Shown in pieces: positions 2,522 to 13,166 of a stretch of DNA of 21,249 nt. Position numbers and translations under genes: made by a program. A model generated the notes under the pieces. That model was not told the origin of the DNA and did not search any database. It saw only the letters and a program-made list of their open reading frames with translations. The first letter of the stretch is position 1, and each line of letters starts with the position of its first letter. Source of the DNA: a virus. The DNA is taken from positions 1 to 21,249 of IMG/VR virus record IMGVR_UViG_3300018067_000031. One strand, given 5' to 3'.

Positions 2522-5332
2522 ATGTCGCTGCAACGCATCTCCGACCTGACAGCCGGCACGCCGCCATATAGCGGCGCGAGCATCATCGAAGTTTCGGTGC
2601 CAACCGGCGCTGCGCCGCCCTACGCCTCGCGCAAGGCGCAGCTATCGGACATTGTCGGGGCTTATCTGCCGTTGACCGGCGGCCTTTTGAGCGGCGCGCT
2701 GGGGATCAAGACAACGACCCTGCTGGCTGATTTGCACATCGGGCAGTCAGCTCCCGCGACCGCCCGCAGCTACCACACCATGTCCGACGCCAACAATGGC
2801 GAGTGGGCTTACTTGGGAGATTGGCTTGGTAATGTTGCGAGGTATGGCACTGATAAGAATGGTTCCGGGGTCGCGCGCGACATTTATTTAATGCGCGGGG
2901 GCATGCCACAGCTTTCAATCGCCAACGGGTTTGGAACTACCGCTTACATTGGCATCAACACGACTGCGCCGGGCTGCATGCTGGACGTTGTTGTCCCGAG
3001 CGACGCTTCCGGCACCATCAGGATTGGCAACCCGCTGATCGGGGCCGGGGCCAGTTGCGGTGCAACCGTCGAGGCTACCGGCGTGCGTGGCGACGCCAAC
3101 GGCACCTTCGACGGCAGGATCGCGATCGGCTTTCGCCGCACCGACGGCAACCCGATCGACAACGCCTACATCGGCCGCGTCGGAACCCTTGGATTTGGTG
3201 GTCAGTGGGGCACCGACCAGACCTTCCAGCAGACCAAGATGCTGTACCCCGCCTCGATCCAGGGGTTGGTCGAGGGCTCGTACACCGCCGCCAACAACAT
3301 GCCGACCGCGCTGTCATTCCGCACCGGGCTGGTGGGCGAGGACATCCGCGCACCGAACACCAGCTTCGGCACCGAGCGGATACGGATCACCAGCGGCGGC
3401 AATGTTGGGTTTGGCACGAGTATTCCGCAAGCCTTACTTCACATTGGCACTACCGCAGCAACTGCGCGTACTTACAATACCTTCACCGACGCCAGCAACG
3501 GCGAATGGGCTTACATGGGGGATTGGAGTACCAATACCGCGAAGTATGGCACTGATAAGAATGGTTCTGGGATCGCGCGCAACGTCCAGTTTATGGTTGG
3601 TGGCGTTGACAAGCTGAATTACGGTGTGTCACTAGCTAATTATTGGGCTGCATCGAGCCCGCTTCATATATATGGCTTCGATGCGGCTAGTGGCGCGGCG
3701 TTAGTGCTCGGTAATAATGGTGGAGCCAACTCCTATATTGGAGGCTCTTGGTTTAGCTTTAATACTTATTGGAATGGGTCAAGTTACGTATTCGGTCAGG
3801 GTAGTCATGCTGGTACGCCATACGGCGGCCTGTATGTGTTTGATCCACCTACTGGAGTTCACAGGTGGAGTATAACTGACGCGGGAGGTGCTGCCGGGGC
3901 GGCGACTTCGGCTGTTACTGCTTTAGCGTTGAAGCGTATCGCCGGTGTCTCATTATTAACGATTGGAACCTGGGTCGATTTTACCGCCGCTTTTCCGGCA
4001 TTGCGGGCCAACGGCAATTCACTGGAAGTGCGTCTCGCTGACGACAGCGCCTATGCGCAGTTCCGTGCCTCAATACTTTACGGCGATACGCTTGGCGGCA
4101 ACGCTATGGCGTTTGCCCAGGCGCAGTGGACGATGAGTGGCGGCGGTGCAATCACTTGGTCGGGTAACCGGTTGTACTGGAACGCGCGGTTAATCTGGAT
4201 ACCGATTTCGCAGCCGTATGGCACGTTCACGCAGGCAGATTTACCGACTACCGATATACCGCCAAGTCAGGTCTACGATGGTGTCGCGCGCAGTGTTGCT
4301 GGCGGTATCCTGCTCAACGCATGGGAAGCCCTGTATTGGGATCCAACCATTGGTAATTTCCATATCGTTTTTTACGGCAATCCGTGGACCGTACAGAGTT
4401 CTTGGTTACTCGTCGCCTCTGTGAACGGTGATAGCACCTTACTGAAGCTAGGTACAGGCCAACAGATCGCTAATCCGGGTTCAATTACGAATGGGTATGA
4501 GAATAAGTATATCTGGAACAGCGGTGGCGCTCCGCAGCCCGTCAGCATCTCTGTTACTGGCGGTTCCATGCGTAACTACAAGACCTACACCGACGCCAGC
4601 AACGCCGAGTGGTCGATTCTGGGAAGTTGGGGCAGCAACGTCGCGTATTATGGCACCTCGATGATCGGCTCGGGCGTGGCCCGCGATGTTGCTATTCAGC
4701 GCGGCGGCCTCAACCAGATGCTGATCAACGGCGCGCTGATCGCATACGGCCCGGCCGCCGCGTTTACCAGCTCGTTTCCGGCGTTGAAGCGGGTTGGCAC
4801 GTCGCTTCAGCTCCGGTTGGCGGACGACAGCGCCGACGCGCCTTTTTACTCTTCAACCATATACTCTAGTGGTGACTTGTCGGCGACCGGCGCGGTCTTT
4901 GCCGTTGGGTACACAGCTAGGGCGGGTACCCCCGGCCCCAACCGCGGTAACAGGTTCAATATCGACTGGGCACCCGGTGCTCAGTTATGGATCGATAACG
5001 TTAATCAGGGCACGTTCACGCTTACCTGCGACTATCGGATCAAGGAGAATATCGCCGAATTGCCGAGTACCTGGGACAAGGTGAAGGCGCTGCACCCGGT
5101 TAGCTATAGCTATGCGGCCAACCCGGAATTGCTGCGCAATGAGGCGGACCCGGCCGAGCGCTGGGGCTTTATCGCGCACGAGCTGCAAGAGGTGCTACTG
5201 CCGACCGCCGCCACTGGGTACAAGGACGCGCCGAATTTAATTCAGTCCCCCGACATCCTGGCTGTAGCTGCTTCGCTGACAAAGGCGTTGCAAGAAGCAA
5301 TGGCTCGGATCGAGGCGTTGGAGGCAAGATGA
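2522..5332 (+). CDS. Phage tail or head fibre protein with C-terminal S74-type intramolecular chaperone domain
   Basis: The 936-residue fibre starts MSLQRISDLTAGTPPYSG, a common fibre N-terminus. Three related modules (about residues 80-128, 314-362 and 683-731) share a D-A-(S/N)-N-(A/G)-E-W core followed by a YGT(D/S) and GSG(V/I)AR pattern. Two further related segments, near residues 486-519 and 747-780, share FPAL and RLADDSA. The last 100 residues are a peptidase S74-type chaperone: CDYRIKENI at 836-844, then WGFIAHELQEV and a final helix ending in ALQEAMARIEALEAR. Such domains help the fibre trimerise and usually cleave themselves off. The family nucleophile is Ser; here it is Cys836, with the partner Lys841 kept. 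The central DNA, about 3630-4560, has clearly lower GC than the flanks, suggesting an exchanged host-range module. A start two bases after the previous stop, with GGAAG upstream, fits well. Confidence 0.88.
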   Translation: MSLQRISDLTAGTPPYSGASIIEVSVPTGAAPPYASRKAQLSDIVGAYLPLTGGLLSGALGIKTTTLLADLHIGQSAPATARSYHTMSDANNGEWAYLGDWLGNVARYGTDKNGSGVARDIYLMRGGMPQLSIANGFGTTAYIGINTTAPGCMLDVVVPSDASGTIRIGNPLIGAGASCGATVEATGVRGDANGTFDGRIAIGFRRTDGNPIDNAYIGRVGTLGFGGQWGTDQTFQQTKMLYPASIQGLVEGSYTAANNMPTALSFRTGLVGEDIRAPNTSFGTERIRITSGGNVGFGTSIPQALLHIGTTAATARTYNTFTDASNGEWAYMGDWSTNTAKYGTDKNGSGIARNVQFMVGGVDKLNYGVSLANYWAASSPLHIYGFDAASGAALVLGNNGGANSYIGGSWFSFNTYWNGSSYVFGQGSHAGTPYGGLYVFDPPTGVHRWSITDAGGAAGAATSAVTALALKRIAGVSLLTIGTWVDFTAAFPALRANGNSLEVRLADDSAYAQFRASILYGDTLGGNAMAFAQAQWTMSGGGAITWSGNRLYWNARLIWIPISQPYGTFTQADLPTTDIPPSQVYDGVARSVAGGILLNAWEALYWDPTIGNFHIVFYGNPWTVQSSWLLVASVNGDSTLLKLGTGQQIANPGSITNGYENKYIWNSGGAPQPVSISVTGGSMRNYKTYTDASNAEWSILGSWGSNVAYYGTSMIGSGVARDVAIQRGGLNQMLINGALIAYGPAAAFTSSFPALKRVGTSLQLRLADDSADAPFYSSTIYSSGDLSATGAVFAVGYTARAGTPGPNRGNRFNIDWAPGAQLWIDNVNQGTFTLTCDYRIKENIAELPSTWDKVKALHPVSYSYAANPELLRNEADPAERWGFIAHELQEVLLPTAATGYKDAPNLIQSPDILAVAASLTKALQEAMARIEALEAR
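2759..4714 (+). repeat. Three dispersed copies of a ~49-residue module within the fibre gene
   Basis: Copies lie at about 2759-2905, 3461-3607 and 4568-4714. Copies 1 and 2 share YGTDKNGSG exactly and differ mildly elsewhere; copy 3 is more diverged (AEWSILGSWGSNVAYYGT). They mark internal duplication of a fibre building block. The spacing is irregular, so this is not a tandem array. Confidence 0.7.
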
Positions 5333-5792: not shown

Positions 5793-6556
5793 TTAGCGAG
5801 CGCGGCATCGCCGTCTCAGTAGGACACGCGGCCGGGATTGGGCGCGCCGCGGCGCAGGCATCGGTATACGGCGATGCCATCGATTACCGGCTGACCGAGG
5901 ACGACGCCGGGCGACTGACCGAGGACGGGCTCGATTACCGGGTGCTCGACGGTGCGCTGTCGCTGGCTTCGGCGGGAAGCGTGGTCGGATCAAGTACCGT
6001 TTCGGCGGCTGGCGCATGGCGTGTCGCCGCGGCTGCCGCGGCCAGCGGCACCAGCGCCGTTGCTGCCGCGTCATCTGTCGGCGTGACCATCGCCGCAGCG
6101 GGTGCGTCTACTGGCACCAGCACCGTATCGGCGACGGGCGCGGCCGGCACACTCGGCGTCGCCGCAGCCTACGGGACCAGTACGGCGGTTGCGGCGAGCC
6201 TTGCCGGCGCGGCAGGCGTGGCGGATGGGGCGGCGGCCGGCAGCTCGACGGCGGATGCCACGGGCGCCGCCACAGCGGCGGCCAGCGGCTCGGCGAGCGG
6301 CACCTCGACGGCCGAAGCCAACTCAACCGCGGCGCCGCCTGTTCTGGTGGTGATCGGCGGCGGGCGGATCTCCCCGCGCGAATACATCATTGCGGCGGAA
6401 GGGCACGCGGCCGGCACCTCGACATGTGCGGCACGGGGTTGGGCAATTGTGGCCGGCACAGGGAAGGCTGATGGCATGGCGGCCGTGACGGCCGAAGGTG
6501 TCGCACGCCGATATCTGCACGACGACGAGATTATGATCCTGCTCGAGGCCGCCTGA
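5789..6556 (+). CDS. Ala/Gly/Ser/Thr-rich repeat protein, probably a fibrous virion component
   Basis: The 255-residue protein starts at ATG 5789 (ATGA overlap). After a short N-terminal part with two LTED motifs around residues 35-50, residues about 60-185 are almost entirely Ala, Gly, Ser, Thr and Val. A G-(T/S)-S-(T/A) motif recurs at residues 67, 87, 109, 129, 151 and 171, spaced exactly 20/22/20/22/20, with a seventh copy at 209 after a Pro-rich hinge (STAAPPVLVVIGGG). The C-terminus RRYLHDDEIMILLEAA is helical and acidic. The pattern suggests a beta-solenoid or similar fibrous fold. Its place among fibre and collagen-like genes suggests an external appendage. No signal peptide or anchor is visible. 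Function is unknown; the repeat reading is firm and the fold is inference. Confidence 0.72.
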   Translation: MISERGIAVSVGHAAGIGRAAAQASVYGDAIDYRLTEDDAGRLTEDGLDYRVLDGALSLASAGSVVGSSTVSAAGAWRVAAAAAASGTSAVAAASSVGVTIAAAGASTGTSTVSATGAAGTLGVAAAYGTSTAVAASLAGAAGVADGAAAGSSTADATGAATAAASGSASGTSTAEANSTAAPPVLVVIGGGRISPREYIIAAEGHAAGTSTCAARGWAIVAGTGKADGMAAVTAEGVARRYLHDDEIMILLEAA

Positions 6557-7023
6557 TGCCCGACCTGCCATTGCCGCGCTATTCGTTATGGCAGGCGATC
6601 GGCGTCGCGCTGGGGCTCGCGACGCGGGCGATTGAGGAGGTGCGGGCGGGCGGCAAGCCGGGGCCGCAGGGGAAACCCGGCAAGCCCGGCGAGGATGGGC
6701 GCACACTCGCCTTCCGCGGCGCATGGAAGGCCGCCAGCGAGTATCAAGCGTTCGATGTGGCGATGTGCGACGGCTCATCGTTTGTCGCGCTGTGCGACGC
6801 TCCAGGCGCGTGCCCTGGCGATGGCTGGCGCCTCTTGGCAGCCCGCGGCAAATCCGGCCCGCCGGGCCCCGCCGGGGCAACCGGGGAGAGGGGCTGGCCC
6901 GGACCGCCGGGGCCATCGCCGGCTTCGCTTGAGGTCGACGGCGAGGGGCTGTTGACGTTGCGCCTCGGCGATGGGACTCGGCTCGACTGCGATCTGTACC
7001 CGGTGCTGGCGAAGCTGCGATGA
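6556..7023 (+). CDS. Collagen-like virion protein with embedded carbohydrate-binding-like module
   Basis: The 155-residue protein starts at ATG 6556, overlapping the previous stop by one base. Residues 1-31 are an amphipathic N-terminal anchor. Residues 33-50 are six Gly-X-Y triplets. Residues about 53-97 hold FRGAWKAASEYQAFDVAMC then SSFVALCD and GDGWRLLA, the aromatic pattern (G-x-W, Y, D-V, S-x-(F/W), W) of small chitinase-type carbohydrate-binding modules. Residues 98-121 are eight more triplets, and a short beta domain ends the protein. Four Cys residues are present (71, 80, 86 and 142), three of them within the module. A triple-helical stalk carrying a sugar-binding head would suit host-surface adhesion; that role is inference. 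The next gene starts four bases before this stop. Confidence 0.78.
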   Translation: MPDLPLPRYSLWQAIGVALGLATRAIEEVRAGGKPGPQGKPGKPGEDGRTLAFRGAWKAASEYQAFDVAMCDGSSFVALCDAPGACPGDGWRLLAARGKSGPPGPAGATGERGWPGPPGPSPASLEVDGEGLLTLRLGDGTRLDCDLYPVLAKLR

Positions 7024-9262: not shown

Positions 9263-9775
9263 ATGGCTGCCGGGACATTCAACGTTTATGCCGCCTCCGA
9301 GATAATCGGCTCGGTGAAATTTGTCGGCGCAAATGCCGTCGGGCCGAAGCTCGCCGTCGAATTTCCCAAGGTCATGTTCCGCCCGGCCGAAGCCATCGGG
9401 CTGATACAGGAAGAATGGGGCACGCTCACTCTGACGGGCGAGGTACTGGTGGACGAAAACGGTATTTTCGGCACCCTCACGCATCCCGACACGGGCGCCG
9501 TCTCACCGCTGACGAGCCAGTATTACATCGGCAAGGGCGTTGTCTCGATCATGCTGGAGGGCGAAAGCACCTGGAGAGACATCGGCAACGTGCCGACATT
9601 CGAGTTCACGCCCGACATCACCACGCTGCCGCACTTCTCCTCGCGGTACGGCGTGCGGGCGAAAGATCTTGAAGTGGTCACCGAGAAGAACGCCTCGCTA
9701 AACATCGTCATGGATGAGTTCACTTACGAAAACCTGATGTTGGCCTTCCTGGGCGAGCCTGTGGTAATGCCATAA
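9263..9775 (+). CDS. Major tail tube protein
   Basis: The 170-residue product fits siphophage tube proteins, which stack as hexameric rings around the tape measure. Typical features are an alternating-strand beta sandwich, a middle EGESTWRDIGNVPTFEFTP segment and a late loop with HFSSRYGVRAKD leading into repeated strands (EVVTEKNASLNIVMDE) and a short C-terminal helix. The start is fixed by ATG 9263 with GGGAGG six bases upstream, and by MAAGTFNVYAASEIIGS at the N-terminus. It is followed, with a one-base overlap (TAATG), by the tail assembly chaperone gene. No C-terminal Ig-like decoration is present. Confidence 0.9.
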   Translation: MAAGTFNVYAASEIIGSVKFVGANAVGPKLAVEFPKVMFRPAEAIGLIQEEWGTLTLTGEVLVDENGIFGTLTHPDTGAVSPLTSQYYIGKGVVSIMLEGESTWRDIGNVPTFEFTPDITTLPHFSSRYGVRAKDLEVVTEKNASLNIVMDEFTYENLMLAFLGEPVVMP

Positions 9776-10191
9776 TGCCCGTCAGTTTTCTCGATCTTGT
9801 ACCGGCGCCGGCCACGGCAACGGTCAAGGTCAACACCAGTACGGGGCCGGTCGAGGTCGAGCTTACGGGCGTGTCGCTGAAGGCGCTTGCCGAAGTGGCG
9901 AAGCGCTACCCAGCGTTCGTGCGGAGGCTGGAGGGCGGCACCGGCTCGATAATGGAACAGCCCGAGGCGATGGGCGCGCTGGTTGCCGCTTCGCTCGGGC
10001 ATCCTGGCGATACCAAGTACGAGGCGCAGATTGCCGCATTCCCGTCTGCCGATGTGATGGAGATGTTTCAGGCGGCATTGCGGCTCACCTTCCCGCAGGC
10101 CGATCCCGGCCCTTTAGCGGTAGCGCCCGACGCGCCGCTGCCGCTCGGCGACGGGTTGGATCAGACCTCGCCATTACCCTTGAGCAACTGA
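9775..10191 (+). CDS. Tail assembly chaperone, short (G-type) form
   Basis: Between tube and tape measure genes, this 138-residue protein occupies the place of lambda gpG. It starts MPVSFLDLVPAPATATVKVN, has a small beta domain followed by a helical core (VSLKALAEVAKRYPAFVRRL, then ADVMEMFQAALRLTFPQ), and ends in a Pro/Leu-rich tail. Chaperones of this type coat the tape measure and recruit tube subunits. Within the gene, codons 113-114 (CCT TTA) form a CCCTTTA heptamer in the phase needed for -1 slippage, followed directly by a 9-bp stem. A minor fraction of ribosomes would then make a 200-residue fusion with the downstream frame. The chaperone call rests on position, size and this frameshift geometry. 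Confidence 0.84.
   Translation: MPVSFLDLVPAPATATVKVNTSTGPVEVELTGVSLKALAEVAKRYPAFVRRLEGGTGSIMEQPEAMGALVAASLGHPGDTKYEAQIAAFPSADVMEMFQAALRLTFPQADPGPLAVAPDAPLPLGDGLDQTSPLPLSN
10110..10144 (+). promoter_or_regulatory. Predicted programmed -1 frameshift site: slippery heptamer plus stem-loop
   Basis: CCCTTTA at 10110-10116 is read C CCT TTA in the chaperone frame, an XXXYYYZ slippery heptamer. GCGGTAGCG (10117-10125) pairs with CGCTGCCGC (10136-10144) over nine base pairs including one G-U, closing a 10-base loop. The stem begins immediately after the heptamer, closer than the usual 5-9 bases, so its base would have to be partly melted when the ribosome pauses. A smaller alternative hairpin lies just downstream near 10140-10149. 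Confidence 0.68.
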
Positions 10192-10376
10192 CCGCCTGGG
10201 GGCATTCGCCCGAGCGACTGTGGGACTGTACCCCACGGCAAGTGGCGGCATGGGCGATTCTCGGCTACGCGCGGAAGCGCAACGAGTTGGCCGAGACGCT
10301 AGCACTACAAACGATGGCGGCGCGGGAGAAAATCGAGAAGGTGAACAAGCAGTTAAAGGATTGGTCCGACGCCTGA
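10116..10376 (+). CDS. Tail assembly chaperone frameshift extension (T-type domain of a G-T fusion)
   Basis: This frame has no ATG, GTG or TTG in its first 40 codons but is clearly coding from about 10160. It gives LAITLEQLTAWGHSPERLW, then RQVAAWAILGYARKRNELAE, then a charged helix, and ends KQLKDWSDA at TGA 10374-10376. It is in the -1 frame relative to the chaperone gene and overlaps its 3' end. After slippage at 10110-10116 it adds 86 residues to the first 114, giving a 200-residue product. This corresponds to lambda gpGT, in which the T part binds tape measure and tube protein. Low-level independent initiation at an internal GTG cannot be excluded, but would lose most of the domain. Confidence 0.74.
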   Translation, partial: SGSARRAAAARRRVGSDLAITLEQLTAWGHSPERLWDCTPRQVAAWAILGYARKRNELAETLALQTMAAREKIEKVNKQLKDWSDA

Positions 10377-12327
10377 CAATCTAAGCATTCAGATATCCGC
10401 CGATACGACGCGGCTACGCTCTGCGCTGGCTCAGGCGCAGCAGCAGGTAACCCAATTCGGGCGCGAGTTGCGGGCCGCCGCGGCGACGGCGGCGCAGACC
10501 GGCGACACGGCGCCGGTCGATCGCCTCGCGAGGAGCTACGAGTCCGCCCGCGCCGAGGTGACGCGGCTCAACCGGGCATTGCGCGTCACCAATACCGAGG
10601 TCGCCGCCACCGGCTCGGCGATGGCTGACGCGAACCGCTATTTCGCGGAGATGAACTCGCACGCCTCCAATCTCGGCGGCGCATTGCGGACGATGACGAC
10701 CCGCTTCGCCACCTTCACCGTAGCGGTCGGGGCGGCGGCGGTTGCGATGGGCAAGCTGGCGACAACCTCGGCTCACTCGCTCGACGACCTCGATGACCTG
10801 GCATCGGCTACGGGAACGACAACACAGCAGATCGAGACGTTACGCCAGGTGGCGGTTAAATCCGGCGACATCGGTTTCGAGAGCATGGACAAGGCGCTCG
10901 AACGAACCACCAAGGCGATGGGCGCGGCGGCGATCGAGGCGGCCAAGTTGGAGAACACGTGGCCGAAGCGCGATTTCTCGGACCCATTCAAGGCGCTCGA
11001 TATCGACGTGACGCGGTTCAAGGATCCCCTCGCCCTGTTGGAGCGGTTCGCGGGCGAGTTGGACAAAGAAAGCAACGCGGCGATCAAGGCTTCCCTCGCC
11101 GCCGAAGTTTTCGGCAAAGCGTGGGCGCGCGTTTTACCGAATATGAAAAATCTACGCGCCGAGATGGCGCTGGCCGAGCGCGAGATAGCTGCGGGTGGTG
11201 GGTTTACCAGCCAGCAGTCGATCGACGCCGCAAACAAGTTCCTGGCGGCTCTCGGCAAACTGGAGTTGCTATTCGGACGGCTGCGCGATGCGGCCGGCGC
11301 GCAACTCGGCGCGGCGCTAACACCCGCGCTCGAACAACTTACCGCCTTTGTCGGGCAGAATATCGCCCAGATCTCCGCCTGGATTGTGAATGCCGCCACC
11401 TACATCCGGGCACTGACAGCGGATCTCATCCGGTTCTTCGTACTAGGTCAGCCCGGCCAGGATACCGAGTGGGGCGCCGCGATCATCAACACGCTGCTCT
11501 ACATTCAGAACACGCTTATCCCCGGCGTTACGACCGCTTTCCAAACGCTAAAGGGGTTCCTCGATCAGGTCGCGGGCGGCATCAACGCAATCTTTGGGAC
11601 GAACCTTACCGGCGGCCAAGTCGGCATGGCTGTCGCTATCCTGCAAATTAGCGGCGCATTCACAACGCTGGCGGCGGCACTTTCAGCGGTCGCCGCAGTG
11701 CTCGCGATTGCCGGACCGGTCGCTCTCGCGCTGACGCCCGCCGGCTGGTTGGTCGCCGGAATGATCGCGATCAGCGCAGCGATCGTGACTCTGACCGACC
11801 AATGGGGGCCGCTGGTCGATGCCGTTGTCGGTGCCGTGCAAAAGATCGGGAACGCCTTATCCTGGCTGTGGGACAAGATGAAAGCCCTCGGCTCTGCCTT
11901 CGGGAATATGCCGAGCCTCGTCGGCGGTGCAACGGCGCCGGCAGGTTTCGCAACCGGCGGCAAGGTGCCCGGCCGCGGTATCGGCGACACCGTGCCGGCA
12001 TGGCTGACGCCGGGCGAGTACGTCGCGCGTCGCGCCAGCGTCGATTATTACGGTCCGCGCATCTTCGCGGCGCTCAACGCCCGCCTGATACCGCGCGATA
12101 TGTTCTCGCGGCGGGGCTTTGCGATGGGCGGTCTCGTCGGCGGTCCGCCAATGGCATTTGCCGGCGGCGGCGAGACATCCGGCGGCAGGCCGGTACATCT
12201 GCACCTGGGCGGTCACAGCTTCGCGCTATCCGGTCAAACAGGCGTCGTGGATGCGCTCGTCACCGAGGCGCACCGGCAGCGCATGCGTTCAGCCGGCACC
12301 AAGCCGAGTTGGTACGGCGGGCACTGA
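10360..12327 (+). CDS. Tape measure protein (start uncertain)
   Basis: This is a long helical protein following the chaperone pair and setting tail length. The conserved-looking N-terminus DNLSIQISADTTRLRSALAQ begins by 10375, but the frame, open only from 10357, has no ATG, GTG or TTG until TTG 10468. I place the start provisionally at ATT 10360 (655 residues); TTG 10468 (619 residues) would remove about 30 plausible residues. A coiled-coil N-terminal half carries EVTRLNRALRVTNTEVAATG. Hydrophobic stretches span about residues 420-480, as expected for a protein reaching the cell membrane during injection. The C-terminus has the family motif FATGGKVPGRGIGDTVPAWL then TPGEYVARRASV. The size is modest, implying a fairly short tail. 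It shares one base with the next gene (TGATG). Confidence 0.88.
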   Translation: MGPTPDNLSIQISADTTRLRSALAQAQQQVTQFGRELRAAAATAAQTGDTAPVDRLARSYESARAEVTRLNRALRVTNTEVAATGSAMADANRYFAEMNSHASNLGGALRTMTTRFATFTVAVGAAAVAMGKLATTSAHSLDDLDDLASATGTTTQQIETLRQVAVKSGDIGFESMDKALERTTKAMGAAAIEAAKLENTWPKRDFSDPFKALDIDVTRFKDPLALLERFAGELDKESNAAIKASLAAEVFGKAWARVLPNMKNLRAEMALAEREIAAGGGFTSQQSIDAANKFLAALGKLELLFGRLRDAAGAQLGAALTPALEQLTAFVGQNIAQISAWIVNAATYIRALTADLIRFFVLGQPGQDTEWGAAIINTLLYIQNTLIPGVTTAFQTLKGFLDQVAGGINAIFGTNLTGGQVGMAVAILQISGAFTTLAAALSAVAAVLAIAGPVALALTPAGWLVAGMIAISAAIVTLTDQWGPLVDAVVGAVQKIGNALSWLWDKMKALGSAFGNMPSLVGGATAPAGFATGGKVPGRGIGDTVPAWLTPGEYVARRASVDYYGPRIFAALNARLIPRDMFSRRGFAMGGLVGGPPMAFAGGGETSGGRPVHLHLGGHSFALSGQTGVVDALVTEAHRQRMRSAGTKPSWYGGH

Positions 12328-12791: not shown

Positions 12792-13166
12792 GTGCCCGAT
12801 ACTATCTCATGGTCTGACGCTAAAGCCGCGGGATTGAAGAGATATTTTATCGGCAGCGCTTGTCCAAAAGGTCATTTCTGCGAGCGCATGGTATCAAACC
12901 GTGATTGCGTCGATTGCATGCGGGCGCGCGACGCTGATATTTACCGCGATGTAAGGCGGGTTAGATCCCGCGAGTACATGAGGCGGGATCGTGTTGCGGA
13001 TCCAGAGAAGTACAACGCCCGCAGTCGAGCGCACTATGCGGCGAACAAGGAAGCGTGGAAGGGTCGGGTGAGGGATTATGAACTACGTAATCCTTTCAAT
13101 GTGCGCGCTTGGCATCGCCTCAAAAAGCAAAAGGATGTACCGGGCCGTTTCGCGGCGACGATCTAA
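12792..13166 (+). CDS. HNH endonuclease, N-terminal fragment (zinc-ribbon part; frameshifted)
   Basis: The 124-residue frame starts at GTG 12792 right after the previous stop. It has a cysteine/histidine cluster SACPKGHFC...DCVDCMRA (C-x3-H and C-x2-C) near residues 23-43, then a basic linker with repeated RSREYMRRDRVADPEKYNAR and AHYAANKEAWKGR units. This N-terminus is typical of free-standing phage HNH endonucleases. The frame ends at TAA 13164, before the nuclease core, which continues in another frame from about 13151. Restoring one base in the T-run at 13148-13150 would join the parts as about 187 residues. As it stands this fragment lacks the nuclease active site. Base composition is near 47% GC over sampled lines, against about 70% in the previous gene, which indicates recent acquisition. 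Confidence 0.75.
   Translation: MPDTISWSDAKAAGLKRYFIGSACPKGHFCERMVSNRDCVDCMRARDADIYRDVRRVRSREYMRRDRVADPEKYNARSRAHYAANKEAWKGRVRDYELRNPFNVRAWHRLKKQKDVPGRFAATI

Follow-up and report, generated by a model that had tools for sequence, protein, structure and literature searches.

The virus record examined here, a stretch of 21,249 bases analysed at its full length (the window) and carrying a siphovirus-like structural module, very probably makes use of a -1 ribosomal frameshift of the phage lambda G/GT kind at the heptamer C CCT TTA in its tail assembly chaperone gene, and translation of its tape measure gene likely begins at an ACG codon. We draw the frameshift conclusion because the heptamer is conserved in phase among relatives, the -1 frame beyond it lacks a start codon, and that frame is under purifying selection. 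The features discussed below are as follows:

9263..9775, + strand: major tail (tube) protein gene, the upstream neighbour (phrog_807, major tail protein with Ig-like domain, E 2.5e-26)
9775..10191, + strand: tail assembly chaperone ("G"), 0-frame product of 138 amino acids (PF23789 / phrog_1442 matches of relatives)
10110..10116, + strand: slippery heptamer C CCT TTA, predicted -1 slip to CCC TTT, at residues 113-114 of G
10116..10376, + strand: -1 frame extension ("T"), 86 codons past the site, stop codon TGA 10374-10376
10117..10144, + strand: stem-loop directly after the heptamer, 10117-10125 pairing with 10136-10144; not supported as functional
10356..10360, + strand: AAGGA Shine-Dalgarno-like element, 8 nt before the ACG
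10369..12327, + strand: tape measure protein gene (PHROG tape measure matches), with a probable ACG start at 10369-10371 that overlaps the extension stop (ACGCCTGA)

Slip site and reading frames of the chaperone gene

CCT (10111-10113) and TTA (10114-10116) are in-frame codons of the gene that starts at ATG 9775, so the heptamer at 10110-10116 has exactly the X XXY YYZ register that a tandem -1 slip requires. From there the -1 frame continues without a stop for 86 codons to the TGA at 10374, and its earliest ATG, GTG or TTG is a GTG at codon 45 of P0002. The initial annotation of this DNA was correct on all these points: the position and phase of the heptamer, the length of the open -1 frame, and the lack of a standard start in its first 40 codons. 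Most ribosomes would read G to its own stop codon (TGA 10189-10191), while a minority would slip back one base, the tRNA-Pro and tRNA-Leu on CCT TTA (10111-10116) re-pairing with CCC TTT, and would continue in the -1 frame as far as TGA 10374-10376, giving a G-T fusion with a predicted length of about 200 amino acids. If the proteins work as in lambda, G would serve to bind the tape measure protein and the T part to recruit tube subunits. We infer the slip itself, its efficiency and this division of labour; the site, the frames and the selection on them come from sequence comparison.

Both codons of the site are uncommon in this genome, CCT being used for 22 of 388 proline codons (5.7%) and TTA for 30 of 561 leucine codons (5.3%), and from this usage a Pro-Leu pair is expected to be spelled CCT TTA only about 0.3% of the time. 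In-phase XXXYYYZ heptamers occur only 9 times in about 6,200 codons of the genome, so a single heptamer is by itself weak evidence and the relatives decide.

The lambda-like layout claimed in the initial annotation, with the frameshift between the tube and tape measure genes, is borne out by the neighbours: the upstream gene matches phrog_807, and the downstream one matches several PHROG tape-measure families. The proteins P0001 and P0002 have no significant match in Pfam or PHROG, and the family links run through relatives: PF23789 (Pre_tape_measure) is matched by 17 of the 30 aligned 0-frame proteins of relatives (best match 1.3e-14), phrog_1442 (tail assembly chaperone) by two of them, and PF09550 (Phage_TAC_6) by the extension of one relative. 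In an AlphaFold model of G (pLDDT 72.8), order extends to about residue 109 and the remainder is disordered, so the slip at residues 113-114 would fall just past the folded domain. With this moderate model, Foldseek found N15 GT (E 4.5e-3, probability 1.00) and Sano G (E 6.1e-3); a PDB fold search with it gave nothing useful, and Rfam and tRNA scans found nothing. Elsewhere in the window, a small open reading frame after the tape measure gene (12792-13166) matches PHROGs of unknown function (phrog_1081, E 6.7e-14) and, weakly, an endonuclease VII-like family (phrog_1035, E 2.5e-4). Three further open reading frames (2522-5332, 1233-2087 and 6556-7023) are present between the portal gene (203-1576) and the tail genes; one encodes a large protein whose C-terminal domain is Peptidase_S74 (endosialidase chaperone), and two have collagen-like repeat matches.

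The 9-bp stem, with no spacer between it and the heptamer, to which the initial annotation drew attention does exist. Its arms (GCGGTAGCG and CGCTGCCGC) include one G-U pair, their pairing probability is about 0.83 in isolation, and the stem is the local minimum-energy fold; yet its energy is like that of shuffled sequence (fold z-scores of -0.11 for 50 nt and 0.49 for 5-60 nt in the window, with a mean of -0.32 over 34 loci), and relative L017 forms a different stem in which that of the window is not kept. We therefore reject it as a conserved stimulator and, on this comparison, leave it out of the frameshift signal.

Conservation of the site and selection on the extension

The relatives (L002-L053) come from searches whose queries were the 0-frame protein, profiles for each of the two frames, and the N-terminal part of the tape measure protein. 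A direct search with the extension alone found no relatives, a profile of the first relatives being needed; the chaperone protein of the window found none in INPHARED, and none were found in GTDB genomes. An in-phase CCCTTTN lies upstream of the extension in 28 of 34 loci (window included), and none of the 34 has an ATG, GTG or TTG in the -1 frame from the site to the conserved block; a good separate start there had been named in the initial annotation as a finding that would speak against a frameshift. Across the 27 heptamer-bearing loci compared, very diverged relatives among them, the first six bases CCCTTT are invariant, while the seventh is A in 9, C in 9, T in 7 and G in 2, and the neighbouring bases vary too. 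Six fixed bases followed by a drifting Z base are the signature of slippage, as read from these alignments, and not of selection on the protein alone. Stop codons in the -1 frame 15 nt (L017) and 12 nt (L037) before the site leave hardly any space in which an earlier shift could occur.

As an independent test, loci were located through a DNA pattern that describes the conserved N-terminus of the tape measure protein, a search that is blind to the chaperone gene. In 36 of 37 such loci an in-phase CCCTTTN lies 259-290 nt upstream, with a -1 frame that ends near the tape measure start. The 37 are those genuine tape measure loci whose upstream sequence is long enough; some are near-identical contigs, and they comprise 28 distinct site regions. 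L066 is included in the 36 (the automatic count was 35, L066 being missed solely because the start of its contig cuts the chaperone gene), and the one exception, L095, is the same contig as L028. The alignment of relatives that the initial annotation proposed thus finds the heptamer conserved in phase, in both the 28 of 34 and the 36 of 37 loci, and strongly supports its central claim, a programmed -1 frameshift that fuses the chaperone to a start-less frame.

The extension itself evolves as protein under purifying selection, to judge from its substitutions. Between the window and L017, dN/dS is 0.14-0.15 for the -1 frame but 0.95 and 2.05 for the two others, which agrees with the earlier impression that this frame reads like real protein; between L018 and L020 it is 0.06 in the -1 frame. 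The extension residues A, E, L, H, TP.Q and R are invariant in 30 loci. (The dN/dS values of the donor gene for window/L017 and L028/L030 are invalid, since the sequences were unaligned across indels, and they were not used.)

Two other explanations of the paired frames can be weighed against these data. The downstream frame could be a separate gene with a non-standard start of its own, the heptamer being incidental; a non-AUG start does seem to be in use elsewhere in the operon, at the tape measure gene. However, none of the 34 loci has an ATG, GTG or TTG in the stretch just described, the first six bases of the heptamer do not change across very diverged relatives, and the homologous gene of cultured phages carries a different classical heptamer in the corresponding place (below), and we consider this explanation very improbable. 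Still less credible is a sequencing or assembly indel that split one continuous gene: the window is one metagenomic contig whose reads cannot be inspected, but the same frame relation recurs in dozens of independent contigs and in cultured phages, and the relatives refute it.

Frameshifting at C CCT TTA is thus the reading we retain for the window; a more distant part of the family differs. An in-phase XXXYYYZ is absent from one clade of six loci (L024, L028, L030, L031, L034 and L036), which has 100/99 support and stands beside L035, whose heptamer is CCCTTTG; the near copies L032 and L033 go with it. Loss of the heptamer while the -1 frame stays conserved had also been named as a finding that would count against the frameshift; it does occur in these six loci, but only in this one more distant clade, and C CCT is kept there, followed by ATC, ACG, TCC or CCG. 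The -1 frame of the clade is start-less, with dN/dS of 0.06 (L034/L036) and 0.26 (L024/L030), so the full heptamer appears to be dispensable in the wider family. The likeliest reading for this clade, though not for the window, is a shift on one tRNA at C CCT, to which we give about an even chance. C CCT is the one in-phase feature common to all six and allows perfect P-site re-pairing (CCT to CCC), although in CCCTATC and CCCTACG the A-site tRNA would re-pair poorly. On the other hand, the Pro-CCT codon may persist by shared ancestry only, and another site such as G GAG GGC could slip, since L028 and L030 also hold GAG GGC, at different offsets. The clade is a natural test of the minimum sequence for a -1 shift.

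Start of the tape measure gene

No ATG, GTG or TTG is present in the tape measure frame between TAA 10354-10356 and TTG 10468. A start at TTG 10468 was considered and is rejected: between the window and L017 the 33 codons from the ACG to this first canonical start have dS 1.21, dN 0.11 and dN/dS 0.09, strong purifying selection which indicates that they are translated, and the first canonical starts of L017 and L028 are not at homologous places (+99 nt in the window, +186 in L017 and +282 in L028). In 38 tape measure homologues, found by a pattern that excluded the start codon, the start slot is ATG in 34, GTG in 2, ACG in one (L089, the L017 contig) and ATA in one (L095, the L028 contig); that of the window is ACG. 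The non-canonical slot lies within 10354-10468 in the window, at 2706 in L017 and at 2712 in L028. Tape-measure-frame stop codons precede the slot by 15 nt in the window and L017 and by 6 nt in L028. AAGGA stands exactly 8 nt before the slot in these three non-AUG loci, and of the 36 metagenomic homologues with ATG or GTG none has it at this distance; cultured Casjensviridae phages, which have ATG, carry AAGGA at 8 nt too. The three non-AUG tape measures may be one lineage, which is present in 54% of bootstrap trees, and they fall within a well-supported set of six.

We prefer initiation at ACG 10369-10371, which on this pattern is the probable start, aided by the Shine-Dalgarno-like AAGGA (10356-10360) and by coupling to termination at the overlapping extension stop. 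The tape measure protein could instead arise as a fusion to the extension, through a +1 shift at GCC TGA C (10371-10377). Frame and position would fit, the window and L017 have the same GCC TGA C, and TGA C is a weak stop context; but neither GCC nor the ACC of L028 can re-pair with CCT, homologues carry ATG or GTG in exactly that slot, and the AAGGA 8 nt before it is placed as in the Casjensviridae with ATG, so a +1 shift seems unlikely. An ACG start would be weak, since initiation in E. coli reporters, relative to ATG, was 0.1-1.5% with ACG and 19-44% with ATA across constructs (PMC6925171).

Taking the ACG start as the preferred one, we tentatively propose a broader scheme, as a possibility which falls a little short of an even prospect: a natural ACG start (AUA in L028) would be rescued by AAGGA at 8 nt and by the stop overlap, tape measure output would depend on both the -1 shift and the weak start, and the related clade would shift on C CCU alone. 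The dependence on the -1 shift would arise because only shifted ribosomes terminate at the overlapping stop, and, if the scheme is true, tape measure output is tied to the amount of G-T made. An ACG or AUA start of an essential virion gene would, if confirmed, be a rare natural non-AUG start, and gene callers would misplace the start of such tape measure genes.

Comparison with known chaperone frameshifts

The comparisons above confirm the predicted frameshift as a new member of the well-known lambda G/GT kind. It has in common with the tail assembly chaperone -1 frameshift of lambda (reviewed in PMC5009743) its place between the tube and tape measure genes, a -1 slip near the end of G, a start-less extension and, as predicted here, a short and a long product. 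It differs from lambda in its heptamer, CCCTTTA, and in protein families that are not lambda's own, the links running through PF23789 and a predicted N15 GT-like fold. PF23789 and PF09550 are matched by relatives, with the window's own proteins below significance. The G/GT frameshift is thereby extended to an uncultured phage group in which CCCTTTN is constant except for its last base.

A different heptamer is found in cultured phages. A site AAAAAAG has been predicted in Burkholderia phage AH2 (PMC3483164), and cultured Casjensviridae have a homologous G, recognized through the proteins of the relatives at about 30% identity, and the same gene order. A tblastn search for the extension in Casjensviridae found no match. 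One Casjensviridae record is annotated with a joined pre-tape measure frameshift protein; the UF_RH7 and MA11 records are annotated without a joined product. In the Casjensviridae, as in the window, the start of the tape measure gene overlaps the stop of the extension and is preceded by AAGGA at 8 nt; their start is ATG, unlike the window's ACG. Their A AAA AAG (at about 1866 of each of the loci L097-L099) occupies the codon pair that aligns with C CCT TTN (GGVKKFVE compared with GGV[N/D]PFVE). This link, in which a different heptamer occupies the matching codon pair, suggests that the place of the shift outlives any particular heptamer.
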